Program-made: the position numbers and the translations under genes
Source: Pseudomonas sp. B21-040
Lineage (GTDB): Bacteria; Pseudomonadota; Gammaproteobacteria; Pseudomonadales; Pseudomonadaceae
DNA length: 64,000 nt
Reading direction: 5' to 3'
Assembly (NCBI RefSeq): GCF_024748695.1
Contig: NZ_CP087176.1
Span: forward strand, 799,501 to 863,500
Notes under the pieces: model-generated
Told to the model about the DNA's origin: nothing
The model's input: the letters and a program-made list of their open reading frames with translations, nothing else
The model's database searches: none
Shown: positions 21,569-36,913 of the stretch, in pieces
How positions within the stretch are numbered: position 1 is the first letter of the stretch
How the letters are laid out: the number at the start of each line of letters is the position of its first letter

Positions 21569-21582
21569 TCTTGCTTCGTATT

Positions 21583-22095: not shown

Positions 22096-22190
22096 CGAAC
22101 TACGAACGCAGGCCCTTTCCAGCTAACATGTGGCGAATCACAATAGTCATGTTTTACTACGGGCCATATGAAGATCGCAGAGCACCATCA

Positions 22191-25100
22191 ATGAGTGAGC
22201 AAAGAATCGAACAAGGCTTTATAGACAAGCTAGTTGAGCTCAAATACACCTACCGCCCAGATATCAGAGACCGCGCCTCACTGGAGCGCAACTTTCGCGA
22301 TAAATTCGAGGCACTCAACCGCGTTCGCCTCACTGATGGCGAATTCGCACGCCTGCTCGACGAGATCGTCACCCCTGATGTGTTTGCGGCGGCGCGCACC
22401 CTGCGCGAGCGTAATGCGTTCACCCGCGAAGACGGCACTCCTCTGAACTACACACTGGTCAACATCAAAGACTGGTGCAAAAACACCTTTGAGGTGGTTA
22501 ACCAGCTACGCATCAACACCGACAACAGCCACCACCGCTTCGACGTCCTAATCCTTATCAATGGTGTTCCGTGCGTTCAAGTGGAACTCAAAACGCTGGG
22601 TATCAACCCGCGGCGCGCCATGGAGCAGATCGTCGAATACAAAAACGACCCCGGCAACGGCTACACCAAAACGCTGCTGTGCTTCCTGCAATTGTTCATC
22701 GTCAGCAACCGCGACAACACCTACTACTTCGCCAATAATAGCGCCCGTCATTTCTCGTTTAACGCTGATGAGCGCTTCTTGCCCATATATCAGTTTGCTG
22801 ACGAGGCAAATAAAAAGATTACCTACCTCGACAGCTTCGCCGAGACCTTCCTCGTCAAATGTACGCTTGGCCAAACACTTAGCCGCTACATGGTGCTCAT
22901 TGCCAGCGAGCAAAAGCTCATGATGATGCGCCCGTACCAAGTCTATGCAGTCAAAGCCATCGTCGAGTGCATCCAGCAAAACTGCGGCAATGGCTATATC
23001 TGGCACACCACCGGCAGCGGCAAAACGCTCACGTCCTTCAAAGCCTCTACCTTGCTCAAGGACACCCCAGAGATCGAGAAATGTCTCTTTGTGGTGGACC
23101 GCAAAGACCTCGACCGCCAGACCCGTGAAGAATTCAACAAGTTCCAGGAAGGCTGCGTCGAAGAAAACACCAACACCGCTGCGCTGGTGCGTCGGCTGCT
23201 GTCCGAGGACTACGCTGACAAAGTTATCGTCACCACCATCCAGAAGCTCGGCCTCGCGCTGGATGAAAACAGTAGACGTAACAAGCAGCGCAAACGGAAC
23301 GACCAGCTCACCTACAAAGAGCAGTTGGCCCCACTGCGCGACAAACGCATTGTGTTCATCTTCGATGAATGCCATCGCTCCCAGTTTGGCGAGAACCACA
23401 AAGCCATCAAGGAGTTCTTCCCCAAAGCCCAGCTCTTTGGCTTTACCGGCACGCCCATCTTCGAAGAAAACGCCTCACGCGTAAAAGTGGAAGACCAGCA
23501 GGCCTCTTACCAAACCACAGAAGAGCTTTTTCAGAAGCAGTTGCACGCTTACACCATCACCCACGCTATTGAAGACGCCAACGTGCTGCGCTTCCATATC
23601 GATTACTTTAAACCAGAGGGCAAAAAAATGCCCAAGCCTGGGGAAGGTTTGGCCAAGCGAGCCGTAATCGAAGCCATCCTCGCTAAGCACGACATGGCCA
23701 CCTCCCAGCGTCGTTTCAATGCCATTTTGGCTACGGCCAGCATCAACGACGCCATCGAATACCATAGCCTGTTTGCCGAGTTGCAACATGCCAAACAACT
23801 GGCCGAACCTGACTACCCGCTGCTGAATATCGCCTGTGTATTCTCGCCGCCAGCTGAAGGCAATGCGGACGTAAAGCAGATTCAGGAAGACCTGCCGCAA
23901 GAAAAGCAGGACAACGAAGAAGACCCAGAAAGCAAAAAAGCAGCGCTCAAAGCCATCCTGGGTAGCTACAACGCCCGTTATGGCAGCAACCACAGCATCA
24001 GCGAGTTCGACCTCTATTACCAAGACGTGCAAAAGCGCATCAAAGACCAACAGTGGCCCAATGCTGACCACCCACATACGCAGAAAATCGACATCACCAT
24101 CGTGGTCGACATGCTGCTCACTGGCTTCGATTCCAAATACCTGAACACGCTCTACGTGGACAAAAAACTCAAGTACCACGGTTTGATCCAGGCGTTCTCG
24201 CGTACCAACCGCGTACTTAACAGCACCAAGCCCTACGGCAACATTCTTGACTTCCGCCAGCAGCAAGATGCTGTAGATATCGCGATTACCCGGTTCTCCG
24301 GCGAACAATCCGGCAAACAGGCCCGCGAAATCTGGCTAGTTGACAAGGCTCCCGTAGTTATTGAAAAACTACAGGCTGCCGTGCAAAAGCTTGATGACTT
24401 TATGCAATCGCAAGGCGTGGCCTGCGCACCGGAGGCCGTGAATAACCTAAAAGGAGACGATGCCCGCGCTGCTTTTATTAGCCACTTCAAGGAAGTGCAG
24501 CGTCTCAAAACCCAGCTTGACCAATATACCGACCTCACTGAAGACAACGCCGCTGCCATTGAGCACATCCTGCCCAAGGAAAACCTGCTGGGCTTTCGCG
24601 GTGCTTATTTGGAAACAGCCCAGCGCCTCAAGGCTCAGCAAGATAAGCACAGCAAAGACAAAGATGGCAAAGCCAATGCAGTTGACCAGCTCGATTTCGA
24701 GTTCGTGCTCTTCGCCTCCACCGTTATTGACTACGACTACATCGTGGGGCTGATGTCACGCTTCTCGCAGCAAGAGCCCAGCAAGCAGAAAATGAGCCGC
24801 GAACAGCTGATTGGCCTGATTCAGGCTGATGCCAAGTTTATCAACGAGCGCGAGGACATTGCCGCCTATATCGCTACTCTTAAGGCCGGTGAGGGGCTGA
24901 GCGAAACCGCTATCCGGGACGGCTATAGCCGCTTCAAGCAACACAAAGACACCGCCGAACTCGCCGCTATCGCAGACAAACACAACCTGGCCCCAGCAGC
25001 CTTACAAGGTTTTGTGGATGGCATTCTGCAACGCATGATCTTCGACGGCGACCAGCTAAGTGACCTGATGGCCCCGCTCGACCTCGGCTGGAAAGCACGC

Positions 25101-25199
25101 GCCCAAGCAGAGCTGGCGTTGATGAAAGAACTCCACGACCTACTTATTAAACGCGCCCAAGGCCGCGAAATATCAGGACTTAGCGCGTATGAGCAGTAA
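22191..25199 (+). CDS. hsdR: HsdR, type I restriction endonuclease motor/nuclease subunit
   Basis: 1002 residues if started at MSEQRIEQGFIDKLVELKY (22191); the frame is open from 22128, but the first residues are atypical. The N-terminal nuclease domain has HRFDVLILINGVPCVQVELK with the D...E-x-K triad. The helicase part has WHTTGSGKTLTS (Walker A), FIFDECHRSQFG (DECH box), FGFTGTPIFEEN, and FSRTNRVLN (motif VI region). It cleaves unmodified DNA after ATP-driven translocation. First gene of the hsdR-hsdS-prrC-like-hsdM operon; it overlaps hsdS by 11 nt. Confidence 0.95.
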   Translation: MSEQRIEQGFIDKLVELKYTYRPDIRDRASLERNFRDKFEALNRVRLTDGEFARLLDEIVTPDVFAAARTLRERNAFTREDGTPLNYTLVNIKDWCKNTFEVVNQLRINTDNSHHRFDVLILINGVPCVQVELKTLGINPRRAMEQIVEYKNDPGNGYTKTLLCFLQLFIVSNRDNTYYFANNSARHFSFNADERFLPIYQFADEANKKITYLDSFAETFLVKCTLGQTLSRYMVLIASEQKLMMMRPYQVYAVKAIVECIQQNCGNGYIWHTTGSGKTLTSFKASTLLKDTPEIEKCLFVVDRKDLDRQTREEFNKFQEGCVEENTNTAALVRRLLSEDYADKVIVTTIQKLGLALDENSRRNKQRKRNDQLTYKEQLAPLRDKRIVFIFDECHRSQFGENHKAIKEFFPKAQLFGFTGTPIFEENASRVKVEDQQASYQTTEELFQKQLHAYTITHAIEDANVLRFHIDYFKPEGKKMPKPGEGLAKRAVIEAILAKHDMATSQRRFNAILATASINDAIEYHSLFAELQHAKQLAEPDYPLLNIACVFSPPAEGNADVKQIQEDLPQEKQDNEEDPESKKAALKAILGSYNARYGSNHSISEFDLYYQDVQKRIKDQQWPNADHPHTQKIDITIVVDMLLTGFDSKYLNTLYVDKKLKYHGLIQAFSRTNRVLNSTKPYGNILDFRQQQDAVDIAITRFSGEQSGKQAREIWLVDKAPVVIEKLQAAVQKLDDFMQSQGVACAPEAVNNLKGDDARAAFISHFKEVQRLKTQLDQYTDLTEDNAAAIEHILPKENLLGFRGAYLETAQRLKAQQDKHSKDKDGKANAVDQLDFEFVLFASTVIDYDYIVGLMSRFSQQEPSKQKMSREQLIGLIQADAKFINEREDIAAYIATLKAGEGLSETAIRDGYSRFKQHKDTAELAAIADKHNLAPAALQGFVDGILQRMIFDGDQLSDLMAPLDLGWKARAQAELALMKELHDLLIKRAQGREISGLSAYEQ

Positions 25200-26409
25200 G
25201 ACAAATACAACCAGTTCGATGGAAGACAGCACGCCCACGCTGGTGCCGAAACTGCGGTTTCCGGAGTTTCGGCAGGCAGAGGGCTGGAAGTTTACCCCTC
25301 TAAATCGCTTGGCGATTCGTGCTAAACAGAAAAATCGAGACGAAAAAATTGATCGTGTGCTAACCAATTCTGCTGAATTTGGTGTAGTAGATCAGAGAGA
25401 TTTTTTTGATAAGGACATCGCTACGCAAGGAAAACTTGAAGGCTATTTTGTTGTTGGGCTGGGCTGCTACGTCTACAACCCACGCATATCGTCAACAGCG
25501 CCAGTAGGCCCCATATCAAAGAACAAAATTGGCACAGGAGTAATGTCGCCGCTGTATACAGTCTTTAAATTCAAAGACGATAGGAACGATTTTTACGAAC
25601 ATTTTTTCAAGACTACCGGCTGGCACACCTATATGCGGCAGGCATCTAGCACTGGTGCACGCCACGATAGGATGGCCATATCAAGCGACGACTTTATGGC
25701 AATGCCTTTGCCTGTGTCGTCACCAGACGAACAACAAAAAATCGCTGATTGTCTGAATTCACTGGACGCATTGATAGTCGCTCAACGCAGCAAAGTGGAC
25801 GCGCTCAAGACCCATAAAGAAGGGCTGCTGCAGCAGCTTTTCCCACGCGAAGGCGAAACCCAACCTAATCTGCGCTTTTCTGGCTTCCGAGAATCATGGA
25901 TCGTAAATAAGCTCGATAGTCTTTGCATCAGTATTTCATCGGGTCGAGATAAGCTCAATCCTGAAGGAGCTTTTGATCTTTACGGATCGACTAGCATCAT
26001 CGGAAAAACGACAAGCCCAAGCTTTAGCGGCGAACGAATACTAATCGCCAGAGTTGGAGCAAATGCTGGCCTATTAACCAAAGCAAAAGGTTCGTTTGGC
26101 GTAACTGACAATACTATTGTGGTCAGCCTAAAGCCTTCAATCAATATTGATTTTATCTTTTACTACCTGGAAAGCATCAATATAAACAGACTCATCTTCG
26201 GTTCGGGTCAGCCACTAATAACTGGAAGTATCTTAAAAAAACTGCCAATTCTGGTGCCATCCGATCTGGAACAACGAAAGATCTCTGCCTGCCTGTCATC
26301 ACTTGGTGACCTGATCGTTACCCAAAGTCTTAAGCTTGAAGCCATAAAGGCCCACAAAATGGGCTTGATGCAGCAGCTCTTCCCATTATTTGCAGAGATC
26401 GACGTCTGA
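25189..26409 (+). CDS. hsdS: HsdS, type I RM specificity subunit
   Basis: 406 residues with the usual duplicated layout: two target-recognition domains (about 30-175 and 235-360), each ending in a conserved helix. The repeats are DEQQKIADCLNSLDALIVAQ...LLQQLFP and LEQRKISACLSSLGDLIVTQ...LMQQLFP. KLRFPEF and NLRFSGF mark the start of each half. It sets the bipartite DNA target of the complex; the target cannot be read from sequence. Base composition becomes clearly more AT-rich in the recognition domains, as expected for frequently exchanged sequence. It overlaps the next gene by 1 nt (TGATG). Confidence 0.95.
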   Translation: MSSKTNTTSSMEDSTPTLVPKLRFPEFRQAEGWKFTPLNRLAIRAKQKNRDEKIDRVLTNSAEFGVVDQRDFFDKDIATQGKLEGYFVVGLGCYVYNPRISSTAPVGPISKNKIGTGVMSPLYTVFKFKDDRNDFYEHFFKTTGWHTYMRQASSTGARHDRMAISSDDFMAMPLPVSSPDEQQKIADCLNSLDALIVAQRSKVDALKTHKEGLLQQLFPREGETQPNLRFSGFRESWIVNKLDSLCISISSGRDKLNPEGAFDLYGSTSIIGKTTSPSFSGERILIARVGANAGLLTKAKGSFGVTDNTIVVSLKPSINIDFIFYYLESININRLIFGSGQPLITGSILKKLPILVPSDLEQRKISACLSSLGDLIVTQSLKLEAIKAHKMGLMQQLFPLFAEIDV

Positions 26410-27533
26410 TGCCTTCTTCTTTTGCTAATTTAACGAATTTAGCACTCCACTTACGAGATGCATTGAATACTAAAAAAATTGTTATTCTCTACGCTTTCAA
26501 TGGCACTGGAAAAACACGTCTTTCTACAACATTCAAAGACCTTGGCAAGATTGATGGCGAGCCTGACACACTTTATTTCAACGCATTCACCGAGGACCTG
26601 TTTTACTGGGATAATGACCTTGAGGAAGACCGAGAGCGGAAGCTTAAAATAAACCGCAACTCGCGGTTCATCACCGCACTGTGGGAGCTGGAGATGGAAA
26701 CGCGAATTCGCCCGTTTCTTGCTCGCTATGCGGACTTCGACTTCCGAATTGACACCGAAAATTGGGAAGTTGTCTTTTCTCGAAAAATACCTAATCCAAA
26801 CTTCGATGAGAACGCAACCAGCCCTCTAGAAGAACGCACCAAGATGGAAACTCATATTAAAATTTCCCGAGGTGAAGAAAATATCTTCATCTGGTGCTTC
26901 TTTCTCGCCGTTGTTCAGTTAGTGCTGGATGACACAGAATCTTATAGCTGGGTAAAGTACATTTATATCGACGATCCAATCTCCTCTCTCGACGAGCATA
27001 ACGCAATAACCGTTGCCAATCATCTGGCGCAATTGTTAACCAAAACAGACAAGATGCCTAGAACAGTTATTTCATCGCACCATGTTCTCTTCTTTAACGT
27101 CCTAAGCAACGAACTGAAGAAGAAGGCCTATCGTCACTTTGTCAAAAAGGGGGCGGCTCCAGAAAACTATATCCTTGAGGACACAACCAGCAAGCCATTC
27201 CTACACCACCTTGCGACACTGGCTGAACTTAATGAGTCAATTGCCACAGGTGCCATATATACGCACCACTTCAACATGCTGCGCCGCGTAATGGAGCAAA
27301 CAGCGAATTTTTTCGACTTGAATAGCTGGGATGACTGCATCAAAATTGAGAATGATGACCAAGATAAAACTTTACACAAAAGAATCATTGATCTAATGAG
27401 TCATGGCGATTATTCGATATACGAGCCGAGGGAAATGATGGGCGAAAACAAAGAGCACTTCCAAAAAATCTTCAGAAACTTTATTGCCACTTACCCTTTT
27501 AACGAAGCGCTGTTTTCCAGCGAAACGAATTAA
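26409..27533 (+). CDS. PrrC/RloA-type AAA ATPase, candidate anticodon nuclease
   Basis: 374 residues (PrrC is about 396). An ABC-like ATPase core is visible: Walker A AFNGTGKTRL (Gly32-Thr36), the signature-like ISRGEENIFIW, and Walker B YIYIDDPISSLDEHN, a form typical of AAA_13 proteins such as PrrC and RloC. The C-terminal part has MLRRVMEQ (Arg292, Glu296) and LMSHGDYS (His332). This R-x3-E...H arrangement resembles the catalytic triad of tRNA anticodon nucleases. The gene lies inside the type I RM operon, after hsdS and before hsdM, as prrC does within its RM locus. Nuclease activity is inference; a plain RloA-like ATPase is the alternative. The region is AT-rich. Confidence 0.7.
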   Translation: MPSSFANLTNLALHLRDALNTKKIVILYAFNGTGKTRLSTTFKDLGKIDGEPDTLYFNAFTEDLFYWDNDLEEDRERKLKINRNSRFITALWELEMETRIRPFLARYADFDFRIDTENWEVVFSRKIPNPNFDENATSPLEERTKMETHIKISRGEENIFIWCFFLAVVQLVLDDTESYSWVKYIYIDDPISSLDEHNAITVANHLAQLLTKTDKMPRTVISSHHVLFFNVLSNELKKKAYRHFVKKGAAPENYILEDTTSKPFLHHLATLAELNESIATGAIYTHHFNMLRRVMEQTANFFDLNSWDDCIKIENDDQDKTLHKRIIDLMSHGDYSIYEPREMMGENKEHFQKIFRNFIATYPFNEALFSSETN

Positions 27534-27538
27534 TCACT

Positions 27539-29158
27539 ATGACCGAAAACCAAAAGAAACTCGGAAAAACCCTATGGGCCATTGCCGATCAATTGCGCGG
27601 AGCTATGGATGCGGATGATTTTCGCGACTATATGCTGTCCTTCCTCTTCCTTCGTTACCTCTCCGACAACTATGAAATAGCGGCGAAGAAGGAACTTGGA
27701 AAAGACTATCCAGAGTTGCCCACTGACGCCTTGCTAAAAACGGGGGCAGCGACTCCTCTTCAAGTCTGGTATGAGGAGAACAAGGCGGACATCCCCGCCT
27801 TCGAGAAGCAGATGCGCCGCAAAGTGCATTACGTCATCGAGCCGGCACATCTATGGAACAGCATCGCCAATATGGCACGCACTCAGGACGATGATCTGCT
27901 CACTACGCTGCAAGCGGGCTTTAAATACATCGAAACCGAGTCCTTTGAGAGCACCTTCCAAGGCCTTTTCTCGGAAATCGATCTGGGGTCCCCCAAGCTG
28001 GGCAGGAGCTATACGGAGCGCAACACTAAGCTCTGCACCATCATCCAAAAGATCGCCGAGGGCCTAGCAGACTTTTCCACAGATAGTGATGCACTGGGCG
28101 ATGCTTACGAATACCTGATCGGCCAGTTTGCCGCTGGTTCAGGCAAGAAGGCGGGCGAGTTCTACACCCCCCAACAAATTTCCGACATCCTTTCCGCTAT
28201 AGTCACCCTTGACAGCCAAAACCCCAAAACCGGGCCCAAAAAGCGCTTGGAAAGTGTGTTGGACTTCGCCTGCGGTTCCGGCTCGCTGCTGCTTAACGTG
28301 CGCAAGCGCATGGGGCAGCATGGCATTGGCAAGATTTATGGCCAGGAAAAGAACATCACCACCTATAACTTGGCCCGCATGAACATGCTGCTGCACGGGG
28401 TGAAGGACACCGAGTTCGCGATTTACCATGGCGACACTTTGAGCAACGACTGGGGCATTCTACGCGAGCTAAACCCTGCTAAAAAACCCACGTTTGATGC
28501 CATTGTCGCTAACCCGCCCTTCAGCTACCGCTGGGACCCCACGGAAGCCCTGGCCGATGACGTGCGCTTCAAAAACCACGGACTAGCACCTAAATCGGCT
28601 GCCGACTTTGCCTTTCTGCTGCATGGCTTTCACTTTTTGAAAGACGAAGGCGTGATGGCCATCATCCTGCCCCACGGTGTGTTATTCCGTGGCGGTGCTG
28701 AAGAGCGCATCCGCACCAAACTGCTAAAAGACGGCCACATCGATACCGTGATCGGCTTGCCATCTAACCTGTTTTATTCCACAGGTATCCCTGTCTGCAT
28801 TCTTGTGCTCAAGAAGTGCAAGCAACCGGACGACGTGTTGTTTATCAACGGGGCTGAACACTTCATCAAAGGTAAGCGCCAGAACCAACTGACCGATGAG
28901 AACATCGCCAAGATCATCGATACTTACCAGTTCCGTAAAGAGGAGCCCCGCTATGCTCGTAGGGTGGAGATGGGGGAGATTGAAAAGAACGGCTACAACC
29001 TGAATATTTCCCGCTACATCACTACCGCGAGCGCAGAGACAGACATTAACCTACAAGCCGTGAATGACAAACTGGCTACGTTAGAAGAAACCATTCAAGC
29101 GGCACGGGACAAACACAATGTGTTTCTGAAAGAGCTGGGCCTGCCATGCTTAATGTGA
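27539..29158 (+). CDS. hsdM: HsdM, type I DNA adenine methyltransferase
   Basis: 539 residues. The N-terminal HsdM domain (LGKTLWAIADQLRGAMDADD, LSFLFLRYLSDNYE) is followed by the methyltransferase domain. VLDFACGSGSLLLNV is the AdoMet-binding motif I, and VANPPFSYRW the catalytic NPPF motif IV of N6-adenine methylases. GEFYTPQQISDIL is also typical. With HsdS it methylates the host target. Last gene of the operon, 5 nt after the PrrC-like gene. The R-S-X-M order differs from the common R-M-S order. Confidence 0.95.
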   Translation: MTENQKKLGKTLWAIADQLRGAMDADDFRDYMLSFLFLRYLSDNYEIAAKKELGKDYPELPTDALLKTGAATPLQVWYEENKADIPAFEKQMRRKVHYVIEPAHLWNSIANMARTQDDDLLTTLQAGFKYIETESFESTFQGLFSEIDLGSPKLGRSYTERNTKLCTIIQKIAEGLADFSTDSDALGDAYEYLIGQFAAGSGKKAGEFYTPQQISDILSAIVTLDSQNPKTGPKKRLESVLDFACGSGSLLLNVRKRMGQHGIGKIYGQEKNITTYNLARMNMLLHGVKDTEFAIYHGDTLSNDWGILRELNPAKKPTFDAIVANPPFSYRWDPTEALADDVRFKNHGLAPKSAADFAFLLHGFHFLKDEGVMAIILPHGVLFRGGAEERIRTKLLKDGHIDTVIGLPSNLFYSTGIPVCILVLKKCKQPDDVLFINGAEHFIKGKRQNQLTDENIAKIIDTYQFRKEEPRYARRVEMGEIEKNGYNLNISRYITTASAETDINLQAVNDKLATLEETIQAARDKHNVFLKELGLPCLM

Positions 29159-30968: not shown

Positions 30969-31957
30969 CACCCGCTCTTTCTTGAAGCCACCTCGTTCCA
31001 CCCTCCCATTTCAAATATGATTAGCGCCACGCCGTTGTTTATCCGTCATTAATTGCCCGTGATCTCTATCGAGTATCGCGCAGTGCCAGAGCGTCAGAGC
31101 GGGGGTTGTCGTGGGGCTATGCTCGAGAGTTGGCGACACCGGCGACACCGGCGACAACCCTGGCAGAATGGGGCCTGGAGCGTGGCGACAAAAGTGGCGA
31201 CAGTCGCCATTTTCTGAGCGCTTTTGCCATGATGCTTGACGCGACTTTTCGCGTGGGTGTAAAAATTGGCGCACGGACCGCTGTCGTTGACAGCACCAGC
31301 CCAGGTAGCCAGAACCTTTAAGGCTACGCCACTTGTGTGGTGGTTCTTCCGAAGTGCGATTAGCGTCCGGCGGCTCGCACGGTCACTCCCCAAGAGTGAT
31401 GGACGCCTACTCGACTGATCTGCCCACCGCGGCAGACGATGGACCTTCCTCGCTGCACTGCAGCAACCTCACCTCTCGGCACACTTCGCTGCGCCAATCC
31501 GCGCCCGTCTCTTTCTCCTTGAAAGAGACGGGCGCTCGTACCACTGCTGCAAGCCACGTCGTACAAAGCATTGCCGCAACTCTCCTCGTGACAATCGGCC
31601 TGACAAATCCGATTCGTCGCCATCCGCAATAATACAGGCACCGGTGCCGCAGCCTAAGGAAAGGCTGCATCTGACTGACAGTCAGGCATGCCCCAGGTGT
31701 CGATGTTTTTGCCTTCTCCCACTCAGGATCTCCAGGTGCCGAACTCGTCAGTCGGTACAGCCTCCACCCGCCCGTGTCTTTGGATACGTCAAGGAGGTCA
31801 GGTTCATGGGGTCATGCCCTCGCTCCCGGCCGTAAGGAGCCGTGCGTTCCACGTCAGTGAACACCTCGCAGGCCGCAGGGGCCTTGATCCCTGATAACAC
31901 TCAACAGCCGTGGCGGGACTACGTGAGGACAACCAGCAATTACCGAGGAGAGAGCCC
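30969..31957. other. About 1 kb of non-coding, hairpin-rich island DNA
   Basis: No convincing gene is seen. It holds the GGCGACA repeat cluster (31132-31208), a 15-bp perfect hairpin GCGCCCGTCTCTTTC / GAAAGAGACGGGCGC (31501-31515 and 31521-31535), the palindrome CTGACTGACAGTCAG (31671-31685) and the leader of the DUF3987 gene. A leftward frame at 31094-31393 shows weak similarity, with a one-base shift, to the protein at 33342-33695, suggesting a decayed inverted copy. Confidence 0.5.
31132..31208 (+). repeat. GGCGACA iteron-like cluster, left copy
   Basis: GGCGACA begins at 31132, 31141 and 31150 (9-bp period), then at 31184 and 31196. The last forms the palindrome GGCGACAGTCGCC (31196-31208). 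The same spacing pattern is found inverted at 33410-33491. Confidence 0.7.
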
Positions 31958-33355
31958 ATGCAGCAGTTAGATCCGAAGCTTGAACTATCACGACCGCTAA
32001 TTGAGTCAAACCCCGTGGCCGAGCCTTATCCGGTCCAGGCACTGGGTGGAATTCTTGGGCCTGCGGTTGAGCGCATGGCCGAGGTCATCGGCGTGCCCCA
32101 GGCACTGGCCGCACAATCGGTCTTGGCTGCCTCGGCGCTGGCCACTCAAGGTCATGCGGGCTTGCAACTCGATGGACGAAATTACCCCCTGTCGCTGTTC
32201 CTGATTACAGTGGCCGCGTCAGGTGATCGCAAGACCGCGGCAGATCGTTTTGCATTGCTGCCAGCACGGCAATGGGAGCGTGAACAGTGGCAGCGCTATC
32301 GCGAACAACTTGCCCGGTACCGTGCCGCACAGCGACAGGCGCAGCGTATCAAGCCCGGCGATCCTGAGCCCGCAAACGGAATGTCGCTCGAAGCGGAGCC
32401 CTCAGCCCCTAGACTGATCACCACGGACCCGACTATCGAGGCCCTGATCAAGGGGCTCTGTCATGACCTGCCTAGCATGGGTCTGTTCTGTGATGAGGGT
32501 GGACAATTCCTCGGCAGCAGCACCATGAGTCGGGATAACCGTTTGAAAGCGGTCACGACCTTGTCGTCACTCTGGGATGGCAGCCCGATAGATCGCGCGC
32601 GTTCCATGGTTGGTGAAAGCTTGCGAGCCTATGACCGACGCTTGAGCCTGCACCTGATGCTGCAACCGTATTTGGCCATGCAGTTACTCAGTGACCCGTT
32701 GCTGCAGGGGCAAGGCATTCTAGGGCGCTGCTTGATGACCTGGCCCACCAGTCTAGCCGGGCAACGTAGCTACCAGGCTGTCGACTTGTCCAAAGACGCT
32801 GCCCTCAAGCGCTATCATCACCGCCTTTCGGCTCTGTTTTATCAGCCTTGGTCACTTTCCGCTGACGGAGCCTTGCAACTGTCAAAGCTGAGCCTCAGTC
32901 CGCTCGCGCGTCGTCGCTGGATTGATTTGCATGATGCTATCGAAGCTCAACTGGGTGAGTTTGGCGAGCTCGCCAGCGTGCGGCCCAGCGGTTCGAAGGC
33001 CGCCGACAACCTTTTGCGCGTCGCCGGCATTTTGGCCGTTGTGGAGGAGAGCAGTGTCGTGGAGGTCGACCATATCCAGCGGGCCTCGGCCTTAGTTGGC
33101 TACTACCTCACCGAGATGCAGCGCCTGACCGAGCAGGAGCCGGTGTGCAGGGTAAAAGAAGAGGCGGACCGGCTGTTGCGCTGGCTGCAGGTCAAGGATT
33201 GGAAGCGCTTCAGTATTCGAGATCTGAATCGCAACGGTCCCCGCTTTGCCCGCAAGAGCAGTCGTCATGCCGCAAAGCTGCTGGTCGAGTTGATTGATCA
33301 TCAGTGGTTGATCTCCGACGGCCACACCTTCGAGGTGCGCCATGTTCAATCTTGA
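31958..33355 (+). CDS. DUF3987 (YfjI-like) protein
   Basis: 465 residues from ATG 31958 with GAGGAGA upstream; the open frame starts earlier at 31910. The N-terminal part has LAAQSVLAASALATQGHA and TVAASGDRKTAADRFAL, a P-loop-like segment of DUF3987 proteins. ITTDPTIEALIKGL, GLFCDEGGQFLGSSTM and LGRCLMTWP continue the ATPase-like core, and the C-terminal 100 residues look like winged helices (WLQVKDWKRFSIRDLNRNG). Members sit in mobile elements and may act in element replication; function is not established. It overlaps the next gene by 14 nt, starting a compact four-gene operon. Confidence 0.75.
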   Translation: MQQLDPKLELSRPLIESNPVAEPYPVQALGGILGPAVERMAEVIGVPQALAAQSVLAASALATQGHAGLQLDGRNYPLSLFLITVAASGDRKTAADRFALLPARQWEREQWQRYREQLARYRAAQRQAQRIKPGDPEPANGMSLEAEPSAPRLITTDPTIEALIKGLCHDLPSMGLFCDEGGQFLGSSTMSRDNRLKAVTTLSSLWDGSPIDRARSMVGESLRAYDRRLSLHLMLQPYLAMQLLSDPLLQGQGILGRCLMTWPTSLAGQRSYQAVDLSKDAALKRYHHRLSALFYQPWSLSADGALQLSKLSLSPLARRRWIDLHDAIEAQLGEFGELASVRPSGSKAADNLLRVAGILAVVEESSVVEVDHIQRASALVGYYLTEMQRLTEQEPVCRVKEEADRLLRWLQVKDWKRFSIRDLNRNGPRFARKSSRHAAKLLVELIDHQWLISDGHTFEVRHVQS

Positions 33356-33695
33356 TGAAGCGCTGCGCAACCATCTGGCTCAACGCCAAAAGGAGCCGAA
33401 AGTGCGATTTGTCGCCGGTACTGTCGCCACTTTGTCGCCACGCTCAAAGGCAGGCAAGGCAAGGGGTGTCGCCGTTGTCGCCGGTGTCGCCACCCTCCAT
33501 AGAACTACCACCTCGACGACCTCCATTATCCAATGGTTGGAAGAGCAGGGCGCGCATCTTTACGTCACCGACAACACGCTGTGTTTTCGCCCGACTGATT
33601 GGGCTCAGTTCGCGATTGTAAGTGCGCACTGGCGAGCCCTTTTGCATGATCTCGCAGCAGCCGATCAGGAACAGAAAAATGGCTCGGGTCGGTAA
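33342..33695 (+). CDS. Island hypothetical protein overlapping the DUF3987 gene
   Basis: 117 residues starting MFNLDEALRNHLAQRQKEPK. The coding DNA includes the right GGCGACA cluster, read as TGTCGCC, giving the odd Val/Ala/Gly-rich stretch FVAGTVATLSP...GVAVVAGVATL. The C-terminal half (IIQWLEEQGAHLYVTDNTLC) looks like a small folded domain. Start and stop both overlap neighbours (14 and 17 nt), indicating translational coupling in the DUF3987-integrase operon. No family recognised. Confidence 0.6.
   Translation: MFNLDEALRNHLAQRQKEPKVRFVAGTVATLSPRSKAGKARGVAVVAGVATLHRTTTSTTSIIQWLEEQGAHLYVTDNTLCFRPTDWAQFAIVSAHWRALLHDLAAADQEQKNGSGR
33410..33491 (-). repeat. GGCGACA iteron-like cluster, inverted right copy
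   Basis: TGTCGCC occurs at 33410, 33422, 33433, 33467, 33476 and 33485. Read on the minus strand the order is three copies with 9-bp period, a 34-bp step, then 11 and 12 bp. The left cluster has 9, 9, 34 and 12 bp, so the two are inverted copies of one element. This copy lies within coding sequence. Confidence 0.7.
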
Positions 33696-34659
33696 GCGAG
33701 CAGGGCGCAATTTCGGCTACGGTCGCCAGCTCAGCTATGCCGGACCGCAAGCACTGAAAGAGCTGTTTGGCGACGGCCATTTTGCTACCGTCAAAGCCCA
33801 TAGTGATCGCTGGCAGGCCTTCGTGCGTTGGTGTCTATCCGAGGAAGGGCCGAGGCTCAATGATGCGCGACAGATCGACCGCGAAGTCCTAATGCGGTAC
33901 GCCGTCCACGTGCGGGAGCAGGTTGATCAGGGCAACGTCGGCATCGCTACCGCGCAGAACCGACTGTCCAGCGTGAACCGAACGATGGCTGCGCTGCGCG
34001 GTGATCAATACGTCAAAATCCCGAGTCCAAGTAAGGCGCTTGGCTTGCAGCGCTCAAGCGTGCGTAGTGAGGCGCCACAAGGCCAAGACCGTGTGCAGGT
34101 CAGGCTGATTGCGCAAGCGCTGTCAGAGCGACAGCAACTGAGGGTGAGTGCCATCGTGCTCCTCGCTCGGGAGACCGGCATGCGCCTGCGTGAAGCGATC
34201 TTGGCGGACTTGCCCCGGCTGCAACGTGAGGCTCGGCAACTGGGCAAGATCAATATCCAGGACGGCACCAAAGGCGGTCGATCAGGCGCATCGGCACCGC
34301 GTTGGATTGCGGTCACGGATCAAGTTCGTGGCGCCCTCGACAGGGCCAGCGAGGCCTCACCCAAGGGCAGTCGGAGTCTGTTAACACCTGATGAAAGCTA
34401 CAAAGATTTCTTACAGACAATCGTACGACCGGCGCGGGACATCATGCATGAGCATGGATTGAAAGGCTTTCATGAACTGCGGGCGGCTTACGCCTGTGAG
34501 CGCTATGAACAACTGACCGGCTTCTCCGCGCCCATCAATGGCGGTCGTGGTCAACGAGAGGATCGAGCACTCGATCAGCGTGCACGTCAGCAGATCAGCC
34601 ACGAGTTGGGGCATAACCGCATCGACGTGGTGAGTGCCTACATCGGAGGTCGTCGATGA
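33679..34659 (+). CDS. Second tyrosine recombinase (integrase-domain protein) of the island
   Basis: 326 residues from ATG 33679 (AGGA upstream), starting MARVGKRAGRNFGYGRQLSY. The N-terminal 110 residues look like a SAM-like core-binding domain (SDRWQAFVRWCLSEEGP). The catalytic domain shows ARETGMRLREAIL (first Arg), GTKGGRSG (beta-strand Lys), GFHELRAAYACERY (H-x-x-R) and HELGHNRIDVVSAYIGG (His and nucleophile Tyr). All catalytic residues appear present. It differs from the P4-type integrase at 35072 and may act on an internal site or resolve element forms. It overlaps both neighbours. Confidence 0.8.
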   Translation: MARVGKRAGRNFGYGRQLSYAGPQALKELFGDGHFATVKAHSDRWQAFVRWCLSEEGPRLNDARQIDREVLMRYAVHVREQVDQGNVGIATAQNRLSSVNRTMAALRGDQYVKIPSPSKALGLQRSSVRSEAPQGQDRVQVRLIAQALSERQQLRVSAIVLLARETGMRLREAILADLPRLQREARQLGKINIQDGTKGGRSGASAPRWIAVTDQVRGALDRASEASPKGSRSLLTPDESYKDFLQTIVRPARDIMHEHGLKGFHELRAAYACERYEQLTGFSAPINGGRGQREDRALDQRARQQISHELGHNRIDVVSAYIGGRR

Positions 34660-34925
34660 AGTCCGAGTTCGATATGGCGTTGTTTCTGAGCCCCGTGCTC
34701 AAAGGTGCGCATGCCACGCGGCAGCGGCATATCAGGCAGGCAGAAAGGATGCACGAGGCGATTCGTGAGCGCTGGAGTTGTGCGACCCCTTGGTCCTGGA
34801 AGGAAAAGCACACCAGATGGTTTTTAGAGCACTACCTGCGTTGCTCAGCACCAGCGACCATCTATTACTATGAGTTAACAGCAGGGCTGATCCGCCGCAG
34901 AAAGACGCAACTCGTGGTTGTCTGA
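34656..34925 (+). CDS. Small protein coupled to the second integrase
   Basis: 89 residues starting MKSEFDMALFLSPVLKGAHA. It is basic and helical, with many Arg, His and Trp residues (WSWKEKHTRWFLEHYLRCSA, then TIYYYELTAGLIRRRKT). The pattern resembles the SAM-like N-terminal domain of tyrosine recombinases, so it could bind DNA alongside the integrase. The start overlaps the integrase stop by 4 nt. No named family; last gene of the DUF3987 operon, followed by a strong hairpin. Confidence 0.55.
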   Translation: MKSEFDMALFLSPVLKGAHATRQRHIRQAERMHEAIRERWSCATPWSWKEKHTRWFLEHYLRCSAPATIYYYELTAGLIRRRKTQLVVV

Positions 34926-35071: not shown

Positions 35072-36328
35072 TCAGCGTATCGGCACGACGTTACGGTCCC
35101 TGGTTTGATTGATGGCGGATGCCGACAGGCTGCCGGTGGCTGCCTTCTGGATATGTTCACTCCACCAGGCCATCATCGGACGCCGGCGTTCGATGTAATC
35201 CGCCCGGTTGTAGGCGCTTCGAACTTCGTCTTTATCGACATGCGCCAGCGCGACTTCGATTAGCTCCGGATCCCATCCATGCTCATTCAGAATTGTGCTG
35301 GCCATGGAGCGCATGCCGTGGCTGACTAAGCGGTCCTGAAAGCCCATTCGTTTCAATGCCATGTTGGCTGTCTGGCTATTCGCGTGGGTGCGCGGATTTC
35401 TATCTGACGGGAACACATATTCCCTGTGGCCGCTATGGGGCTTAAGCGTCTCCAATAACGAGAGTGCATGTTCGGTCAGCGGGATTGTGTGCGGACGACG
35501 CTTTTTCATTCGCTCCGGAGGGATGGTCCAGATGCGTTTTTCGAAGTCGATGTCTGCCCATCGGGTAGTCGCCGCTTCGGCAGGGCGGGTCATAGTGTGT
35601 AGCTGCCATTCGATCAGGCAGCGGGTCGTCCGCTTGATGCTGGCGTTCGCGATTTCCATCATGAGCTCCGGAAGCTCATCTGGTGGTAGCGCTGCCATGT
35701 TCTCTTTCTTAGGTTTCTTGAACACCGCTCGAATGCCGCTGAGAGGGTTGGCAAAGATCATTCCGGAATTGACCCCGTAGGTCATGATCTCGTTAAGGCG
35801 CTGGCTCACTCGCTTAACTGTCTCGAGGCTGCCTTTGGCCTCAATCGGACGAAGGAGCTTGATGACCATTGGGGCGCTGACTTCGGAGAGAGGCGTTGAT
35901 TTCATGCTCGGAAAAACATGCAGTGTGAGGGAGCGCCAAATGTCTTCGGCATACGCCGGCGTGACGGAATCCTTCTTCAGCTCGAACCAGGCGGAGGCCA
36001 CGTTCTCGAAGGTGTGTTCCGTTTCCGCTCGTTTGGCTTCCTGTAGCTCATTGCGCTGAGCTTTTGGGTCGATGCCCTGTGCAAGCAGCTCTCTGGCCTC
36101 AACGGTTTTCTTCCTCGCTTGCGCAAGAGAAACCTCGGGATAAGAGCCGAGTGCCATGTTGATTCGATTTTTGGTGACGGGATGCCGGTAGTTGAAATTC
36201 CACTGCATCGAGCGATTGACCCTGACTCGCAGTTGGAGCCCGTCGCCATCCGTGAGGACGTAATCCTTGTCTTTCGGTTTGACCGCCTTGAGCTGGCGGT
36301 CGGAGAGGCGGGTGGTTTGAGCGCACAT
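35072..36328 (-). CDS. int: P4-type tyrosine integrase of the ssrA island
   Basis: 418 residues from ATG 36328 (GGAG upstream). The N-terminal DUF4102 arm-binding domain (LSDRQLKAVKPKDKDYVLTD, MALGSYPEVSLAQARKK) is followed by a core-binding domain and the catalytic domain. Catalytic residues are in TMTRPAEAATTRW (Arg), MKKRRPHTIPL, LVSHGMRSMAST (H-x-x-R), ALAHVDKDEVRSAYNR (His, Tyr). P4/CP4-57-like integrases commonly use the ssrA or tRNA 3' end. The gene is about 200 bp from the tmRNA 3' end, with arm repeats between them, and should drive insertion and excision of the 21.58-36.53 kb island. Confidence 0.93.
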   Translation of the reverse strand: MCAQTTRLSDRQLKAVKPKDKDYVLTDGDGLQLRVRVNRSMQWNFNYRHPVTKNRINMALGSYPEVSLAQARKKTVEARELLAQGIDPKAQRNELQEAKRAETEHTFENVASAWFELKKDSVTPAYAEDIWRSLTLHVFPSMKSTPLSEVSAPMVIKLLRPIEAKGSLETVKRVSQRLNEIMTYGVNSGMIFANPLSGIRAVFKKPKKENMAALPPDELPELMMEIANASIKRTTRCLIEWQLHTMTRPAEAATTRWADIDFEKRIWTIPPERMKKRRPHTIPLTEHALSLLETLKPHSGHREYVFPSDRNPRTHANSQTANMALKRMGFQDRLVSHGMRSMASTILNEHGWDPELIEVALAHVDKDEVRSAYNRADYIERRRPMMAWWSEHIQKAATGSLSASAINQTRDRNVVPIR

Positions 36329-36504: not shown

Positions 36505-36525
36505 AGTTGATCAAATGGTGGAGCC

Positions 36526-36541
36526 GGGGGGATTTGAACCC
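36526..36541. other. attR: tmRNA 3' end as island junction
   Basis: TGGTGGAGCCGGGGGG is the complement of the tmRNA acceptor 3' end. A near copy is at 21583-21595. This copy restores a full CCA-ended tmRNA after insertion. Confidence 0.6.
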
Positions 36542-36913
36542 CCGTCCGCCAGTACTCCGCTGTCGGTACTACATGCGTAGCCGTTTCTATTAAGTTAACC
36601 CTCAGCGACCCGAAGGGCAGGGTGCTTTGGGCGAGTTGTGTAAGTTTTAGCCGCTTCGTCCACAACGTACTGCACGGCGATTCTGTTCTATATGACAATC
36701 ACTTTGGGTTTACAGACATCCCCTGGTGATTGCTGGACCCGAAGGTACCAGAAGCTCAGGATCTAAAGCTGCTTACGCAGCGAGAGAGAATTCCTGGCCG
36801 TAGGTTTCGTCATTGGCAACTATAAGTAGTTGCAACAGTGGATTTACGAGTTCTGTTACCAACTCGGCATGCACCTAAAGTTTCGCAACCGGCGTCGAAT
36901 CCTAAACGGCCCC
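36526..36913 (-). ncRNA. ssrA: tmRNA (SsrA)
   Basis: 388 nt on the minus strand. The 5' end GGGGCCG...GGATTCGACGCCGG and the 3' end GGGGGTTCAAATCCCCCCGG...CTCCACCA form the tRNA-like domain with a T-loop. The tag reading frame (36817 down to 36773) encodes ANDETYGQEFSLAA followed by TAA. CCA is encoded. tmRNA rescues stalled ribosomes and tags the nascent protein for degradation; its partner SmpB is encoded at 46813-47295 in the same window. An island is inserted at its 3' end. Confidence 0.97.

Follow-up and report, generated by a model that had tools for sequence, protein, structure and literature searches.

The window analysed here (64,000 nucleotides of Pseudomonas sp. B21-040) carries an intact prrC gene, embedded between hsdS and hsdM of a type I restriction-modification (R-M) operon, whose sequence, operon, motif alignment, family and branch we describe. 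Taken jointly, the data are very probably best explained by a prrC of R-S-C-M order (hsdR, hsdS, prrC, hsdM) whose product would be silenced by HsdRSM, released upon phage infection and able to cut tRNA, the gene behaving as an exchangeable cassette. The operon comprises the following genes:

22128..25199, + strand: hsdR, type I restriction subunit, 1023 aa (PADLOC REase_I 1103 bits; TIGR00348 above cut-off)
25189..26409, + strand: hsdS, specificity subunit, 406 aa (PADLOC Specificity_I 302 bits; Pfam Methylase_S)
26409..27533, + strand: prrC, candidate anticodon nuclease, 374 aa (PADLOC PrrC; Pfam AAA_13; alignment with E. coli anticodon nucleases)
27539..29158, + strand: hsdM, type I methyltransferase, 539 aa (TIGR00497 397 bits, above cut-off; PADLOC MTase_I 512 bits)

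The four genes run in one direction with all frames open, hsdS overlapping hsdR by 11 nt and prrC starting with ATG. A sequence-only reading of this DNA had proposed the order R-S-X-M, with which the neighbours' matches to PADLOC, NCBIfam and Pfam models agree, and had placed spacers of 1 nt after hsdS and 5 nt before hsdM; the second is present, while the first is in fact a 1-nt overlap (TGATG). HsdR contains the Pfam domains EcoR124_C, HSDR_N and SWI2_SNF2, and because of the EcoR124_C domain the operon is taken to be type IC-like. The GC content of prrC is 42.8%, compared to 53.2% for hsdR, 45.9% for hsdS, 52.5% for hsdM and 57.4% for the whole window. A protein identical to that of the window (100%) occurs in a Pseudomonas fluorescens C8 record (L039).

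Membership of the window protein in the PrrC family is well supported by sequence comparison. The PADLOC PrrC model matches residues 6-367 with 438.7 bits (E 4e-132), a model that also matches, at unstated strength, in 2 of 14 control genomes, and an HMM built only from M-S-C-R (EcoPrrC-like) proteins scores it at 232.7 bits, compared to at most 46.1 bits for 14 AAA_13-like frames of 390-753 aa. When the window protein was shuffled, the HMMs of either branch reported 0 of 1000 sequences. Moreover, 374 aa falls within the PrrC length range of 341-416 aa (PMC2610378). The NCBIfam search gave no PrrC name for the window protein, nor for its E. coli counterpart. The PrrC-like reading proposed from the sequence alone, for which an HMM check against PrrC was run, is thus borne out by the PADLOC match together with the triad alignment given below, and the AAA_13-type ATPase that it had recognised agrees with a Pfam AAA_13 match of 61 bits. 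In contrast, its 'weak overall resemblance' understates a clear match, namely 35% identity over 356 aligned positions with the E. coli protein (L002, from CP057689) that serves here as the EcoPrrC stand-in. RloC or generic AAA_13 membership is rejected because of length, the absent zinc hook and the HMM scores. The prrC of the window is an ordinary gene for the PrrC family and an additional Pseudomonas member of it.

The motifs recognised in the protein are the following:

26493..26516, + strand: Walker A AFNGTGKT, residues 29-36
26571..26621, + strand: LYFNAFTEDLFYWDNDL block, residues 55-71, largely conserved in 79 rows, residue 66 variable
26862..26879, + strand: degenerate ABC signature ISRGEE, residues 152-157
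26964..26993, + strand: Walker B / D-loop YIDDPISSLD, residues 186-195
27078..27080, + strand: H224, likely linchpin histidine, invariant (79/79 rows)
27282..27284, + strand: R292, equivalent of EcoPrrC R320 (133/133 rows)
27294..27296, + strand: E296, equivalent of EcoPrrC E324 (133/133 rows)
27381..27404, + strand: R325-x6-H332, HEPN-type R-x4-6-H motif, H332 being the equivalent of EcoPrrC H356 (133/133 rows)

The open reading frame 26409-27533 and the residue numbers of AFNGTGKT, ISRGEE, YIDDPISSLD, R292, E296 and H332 are as the sequence-only reading had assigned them, and so is the R292-x3-E296...H332 triad, which aligns with R320/E324/H356 and is invariant both over 133 PrrC rows and over all 79 of alignment A4. 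R325 is kept in 129 of the 133 rows, and the spacing between this arginine and the histidine is 6 in every one of them. The block at residues 55-71 is common to the window protein and E. coli PrrC in the alignment, and it is probably the 'PrrC box'. The PrrC box consists of 15 conserved residues (PMC3014915). The stand-in L002 (396 aa) carries Arg320, Glu324 and His356, which is the published numbering of the E. coli PrrC triad (PMC2610378), and shares with the window protein the triad, Walker A and B, the signature, the linchpin histidine, the likely PrrC box and the embedding in a type I operon. The nuclease domains of PrrC and RloC have been assigned to the HEPN RNases with their R-x4-6-H motif (PMC3710099). 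Walker A, signature, Walker B and His224 all lie in the N-terminal two thirds of the window protein, with no zinc-hook insert, and the best explanation of this arrangement is an ABC-ATPase (residues ~1-240) fused to a predicted HEPN-type anticodon nuclease (residues ~250-374). Note that the searches against solved structures returned two chance-level matches with the single protein, and three weak ones with the profile of alignment A4 (one Rad50, two uncharacterised).

The window prrC belongs, as judged from sequence comparison, to a branch of PrrC defined by gene order. Nuclease loci were pooled from genomes (the best 80 of 558 relatives, chosen by closeness to the window), from 34 viral contigs (33 with a usable nuclease), from Pseudomonas genomes and from plasmids, in which tblastn found two E. 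coli 'anticodon nuclease' genes in the order hsdM-hsdS-gene-hsdR. The resulting 139 nuclease frames, which include near-copies and the window's own, divide into 111 R-S-C-M and 28 M-S-C-R, some orders being judged from one side because the locus is cut. An unrooted quick tree was computed from 128 sequences, the window's among them, after removal of near-copies and of frames that were short or cut; the program warned of long branches, notably L074 and L139. In this tree the 24 M-S-C-R rows lie beyond one branch with an SH-aLRT of 100. The operon partners split in the same way: HsdM/HsdR score best against those of the window or of its plasmid relative in 109 of 109 R-S-C-M loci and against E. 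coli or Klebsiella ones in 28 of 28 M-S-C-R loci, 20 of these 137 loci lacking an M or R match and being judged on the remaining one. Identity to L002 ranges from 30.0 to 37.2% in 104 R-S-C-M rows and from 45.7 to 100% in 27 M-S-C-R rows (L002 included), and L002 residues 289-290 are absent in 104/104 of the former and in 8/26 of the latter. A third small nuclease type (L022, L023 and the first copy in L074) also sits in R-S-C-M operons, on a long branch. The 'distinct branch' suggested from the sequence alone is borne out, since operons of the two orders separate on one well supported branch.

Among the known systems closest to that of the window are EcoPrrC and PrrC170. The EcoPrrC locus has the order hsdM-hsdS-prrC-hsdR (PMC3014915), in contrast to R-S-C-M, and HsdR and HsdM of the L002 locus are only 31% and 36% identical to those of the window. 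For PrrC170 of Klebsiella quasipneumoniae, the genes are listed as HsdR, HsdS, PrrC and HsdM, the clone included 300 nt before HsdR, and the protein has an ABC-ATPase domain and 35% identity to EcoPrrC; it was active against T1 and T7, arrested growth on expression, and had tRNA-Lys as its target by tRNA sequencing (PMC11555353). Its 35% identity falls inside the R-S-C-M range and outside the M-S-C-R range, and because of this value and the listed order we infer that PrrC170 goes with the R-S-C-M branch. Its host differs from ours, and two members of the branch from Klebsiella plasmids share 56-57% identity with the window protein. The novelty of the window gene is lowered accordingly, because PrrC170, apparently of the same gene order, has already been tested. 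Activity has also been claimed, on the basis of unpublished data, for the PrrC proteins of Haemophilus influenzae and Streptococcus mutans (PMC2610378).

By analogy with EcoPrrC and PrrC170, the mechanism would be as follows. PrrC, probably co-translated with HsdS and HsdM, would be kept silent inside the type I HsdRSM complex; a phage inhibiting or perturbing this complex would cause the nucleotide-driven release of the nuclease; and the freed enzyme would cut the anticodon loop of a host tRNA, most likely tRNA-Lys(UUU), so that translation would stop and the infection be aborted.

For the tRNA target, tRNA-Lys is our best guess because of PrrC170, but it is not assured, because the position of EcoPrrC Asp287, the presumed contact of the modified wobble base (PMC3014915, PMC13191261), aligns with Ser261 in the window protein and varies within the branch. 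In this column, where the loop aligns with gaps, aspartate occurs in 26/26 M-S-C-R rows and in 62/104 R-S-C-M rows, and alignment A3 (49 rows, three being M-S-C-R) has S 17, A 11, D 9, E 6, G 4 and N 2 times. Asp287 was not treated as defining PrrC because of this variability within the R-S-C-M branch. The window nuclease could consequently keep the same fold and release and cut a different tRNA, its wobble-base contact having changed, and the remark that substrates may vary since the recognition stretch varies (PMC3014915) points the same way. We hold this to be possible but rather doubtful, since PrrC170, placed above in the same branch, targets tRNA-Lys (PMC11555353) and Asp258, three residues upstream of Ser261, could serve instead. 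Moreover, the host genome has a tRNA-Lys(ttt) whose anticodon loop, CTTTTAA, equals that of E. coli.

The search with the window protein gave at least 8000 scored relatives. The PrrC model found a match at E 1e-3 in 101 of 398 Pseudomonas genomes, and a match of at least 190 bits in 16 of the 398 (own genome included), the next best being 59 bits in a longer frame. Close HsdM relatives had PrrC in 9 of 9 cases (own genome included) in 298 Pseudomonas genomes. As a general rule, that close HsdM relatives always have PrrC fails in the wider class sample: among 13 HsdM relatives other than the window's own, PrrC or part of it lay within ~1.5 kb upstream in 6, a contig end cut 3, and 4 had none in reach. 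In the close HsdM relatives L199, L205, L208 and L210, with no PrrC within ~1.5 kb, another gene lies upstream of hsdM, preceded by hsdS in L199 and L205; we take these genes to be DUF1016-like, zeta-like and Fic-like. In addition, gaps of more than 500 bases occur between R and S in 21, between S and C in 12 and between C and M in 14 of 90 four-gene loci, mostly with another ORF inside, and by the look of their sequences we presume the interval genes to be RhuM-like, DinD-like, Fic-like, zeta-like and DUF1016-like. RhuM-like and Fic/Doc-like genes near the PrrC/RloC nuclease family have already been noted (PMC3710099), and type I loci of Campylobacter have been mentioned as carrying inserts (PMC2610378). 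The presence of other kinds of genes in the same intervals of some related operons could favour a decayed or catalytically dead R-M accessory protein, or one with a substrate other than tRNA, but such a reading is improbable given the intact ORF, the kept ATPase and nuclease residues and the intact hsdR, hsdS and hsdM frames. An RloC-like, DNA-break-activated anticodon nuclease outside R-M control is very improbable: the window protein shares with RloC the ABC-ATPase, the R-x3-E...H triad and the Pfam AAA_13 match, but RloC proteins, of 658-897 aa, are about twice as long, carry a zinc-hook coiled coil and are rarely R-M-linked (PMC2610378), whereas the 374-aa window protein contains no CxxC zinc hook, lies in a tight operon within hsd and resembles EcoPrrC-type rows far more than it does the other AAA_13-like frames.

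Several related loci show further arrangements. The plasmids that carry the E. coli M-S-C-R prr operons L002 (CP057689.1) and L003 (NZ_CP061756.1) also have genes for terminase, PdcA, a late-promoter activator and Phd/Doc-type proteins, and we take these plasmids to resemble P1-type phage-plasmids. On Klebsiella and E. coli plasmids with R-S-C-M operons (L004, L006, L007 and L008), genes for a TrlF-family AAA-like ATPase and an 'RNA-binding domain' protein stand between hsdR and hsdS, annotated under other names in L008. One contig (L100) has tandem R-S-C-M operons, each with its own nuclease, the first being cut at the hsdR end, and in L074 one operon (R-S-C-C-M) encodes a pair of differing PrrC-type nucleases, of which one belongs to the third type. 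PrrC relatives also occur on 33 IMG/VR viral contigs (L119-L151), beside at least one hsdR or hsdM and in both orders; these contigs may be phage or island DNA.

The surroundings of the operon fit a variable island at a tmRNA site. A tyrosine integrase gene (35072-36328) adjoins the tmRNA gene (36516-36913), and a related genome without a PrrC match (G005) has other DNA between a gene that we take to be pelG-like, an OsmC gene and the tmRNA. Similarity to this genome ends at about position 21580 of the window and is back only at 31279, a gap that spans the hsd-prrC genes, which are therefore absent from it. In the search for island ends, no stretch of more than 14 bases of the tmRNA end recurred in the rest of the window. 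The G005 interval also has a second copy of the tmRNA end, and window positions 31490-34729 (a DUF3987 gene and an integrase-like gene) are inverted there.

Within Pseudomonas, this nuclease looks like an exchangeable effector cassette, because the interior of the operon appears to have undergone repeated replacement, with hsdR and hsdM remaining almost the same. Seven Pseudomonas operons (L190-L195 and L198) have HsdR 88-94% identical (with only 506 HsdR residues aligned for L194) and HsdM 85-93% identical to those of the window, whereas their nucleases are merely 35-48% identical. At the DNA level, the match with the window begins before hsdR or within its first bases and extends to positions 25205-25877 (the hsdR end or into hsdS); beyond this only short hsdS and prrC pieces match, and similarity is back 0-19 bases into hsdM. 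Over 94 R-S-C-M loci, some of them near-copies, the identities of HsdM and nuclease to the window are uncorrelated (Spearman 0.05, p 0.66), as are those of HsdR and nuclease (0.06, 78 loci), compared to 0.77 for HsdR and HsdM (78 loci). The trees point in the same direction. In the HsdM tree, built from 76 rows, one branch (SH-aLRT 99) separates the window operon and its seven relatives from the rest, and the HsdR tree (FastTree) groups seven of the eight with support 100, L194 having been omitted on account of its short hsdR match, while in the nuclease tree the eight operons need five changes, at least four of which are forced by well supported branches. An AU test that forced the remaining six operons to group, computed without the third type (L190, L191) and without L130 with its long branch, rejected this grouping (p-AU 3.4e-6, 225 log units); it should be noticed that the operon group was chosen by HsdM identity and that this p-value is not blind, because a previous tree containing these nucleases had already been seen.

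Fast divergence alone does not fit these data, since the window nuclease shares more identity with nucleases from other genera (60-65%, among the best 80 of 558 relatives) than with those of these seven operons. The window-type nuclease is also found in other Pseudomonas, with 89% identity in P. sichuanensis among the matches listed. The plainest reading of the sequences is that recombination in hsdR and hsdM, the conserved ends, has repeatedly replaced the hsdS-prrC interior. Three natural nuclease types, those of the window, of L192 and of L190, thus occur with one R/M chassis. HsdS and the nuclease also move separately, the nucleases of L192, L198 and L193 being 88-90% alike and their HsdS only 38-41%. 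Tentatively, and with less confidence than for the exchange itself, the R-S-C-M operon could be seen as a constant HsdR/HsdM chassis accepting and silencing exchangeable anticodon nucleases of widely divergent sequence, traded independently of HsdS, whose types would differ in the tRNA that they cut. Among the matches listed, titles and abstract openings held no report of PrrC cassette exchange, the phylogeny of Blanga-Kanfi 2006 lying outside this scope, and we claim no priority.

Altogether, the window gene adds a Pseudomonas member to the permuted-order branch of PrrC, of which PrrC170 is apparently a tested example, and it is the trading of nucleases over a common chassis that deserves a second look by a specialist. 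If the chassis reading were true, the operon would alter its RNA target much as it alters its DNA target. Such exchange would allow natural operons to be used for testing which part of the R-M complex is responsible for PrrC silencing, and also whether the tRNA specificity of PrrC has been diversified by an arms race with phage tRNAs and tRNA-repair enzymes.
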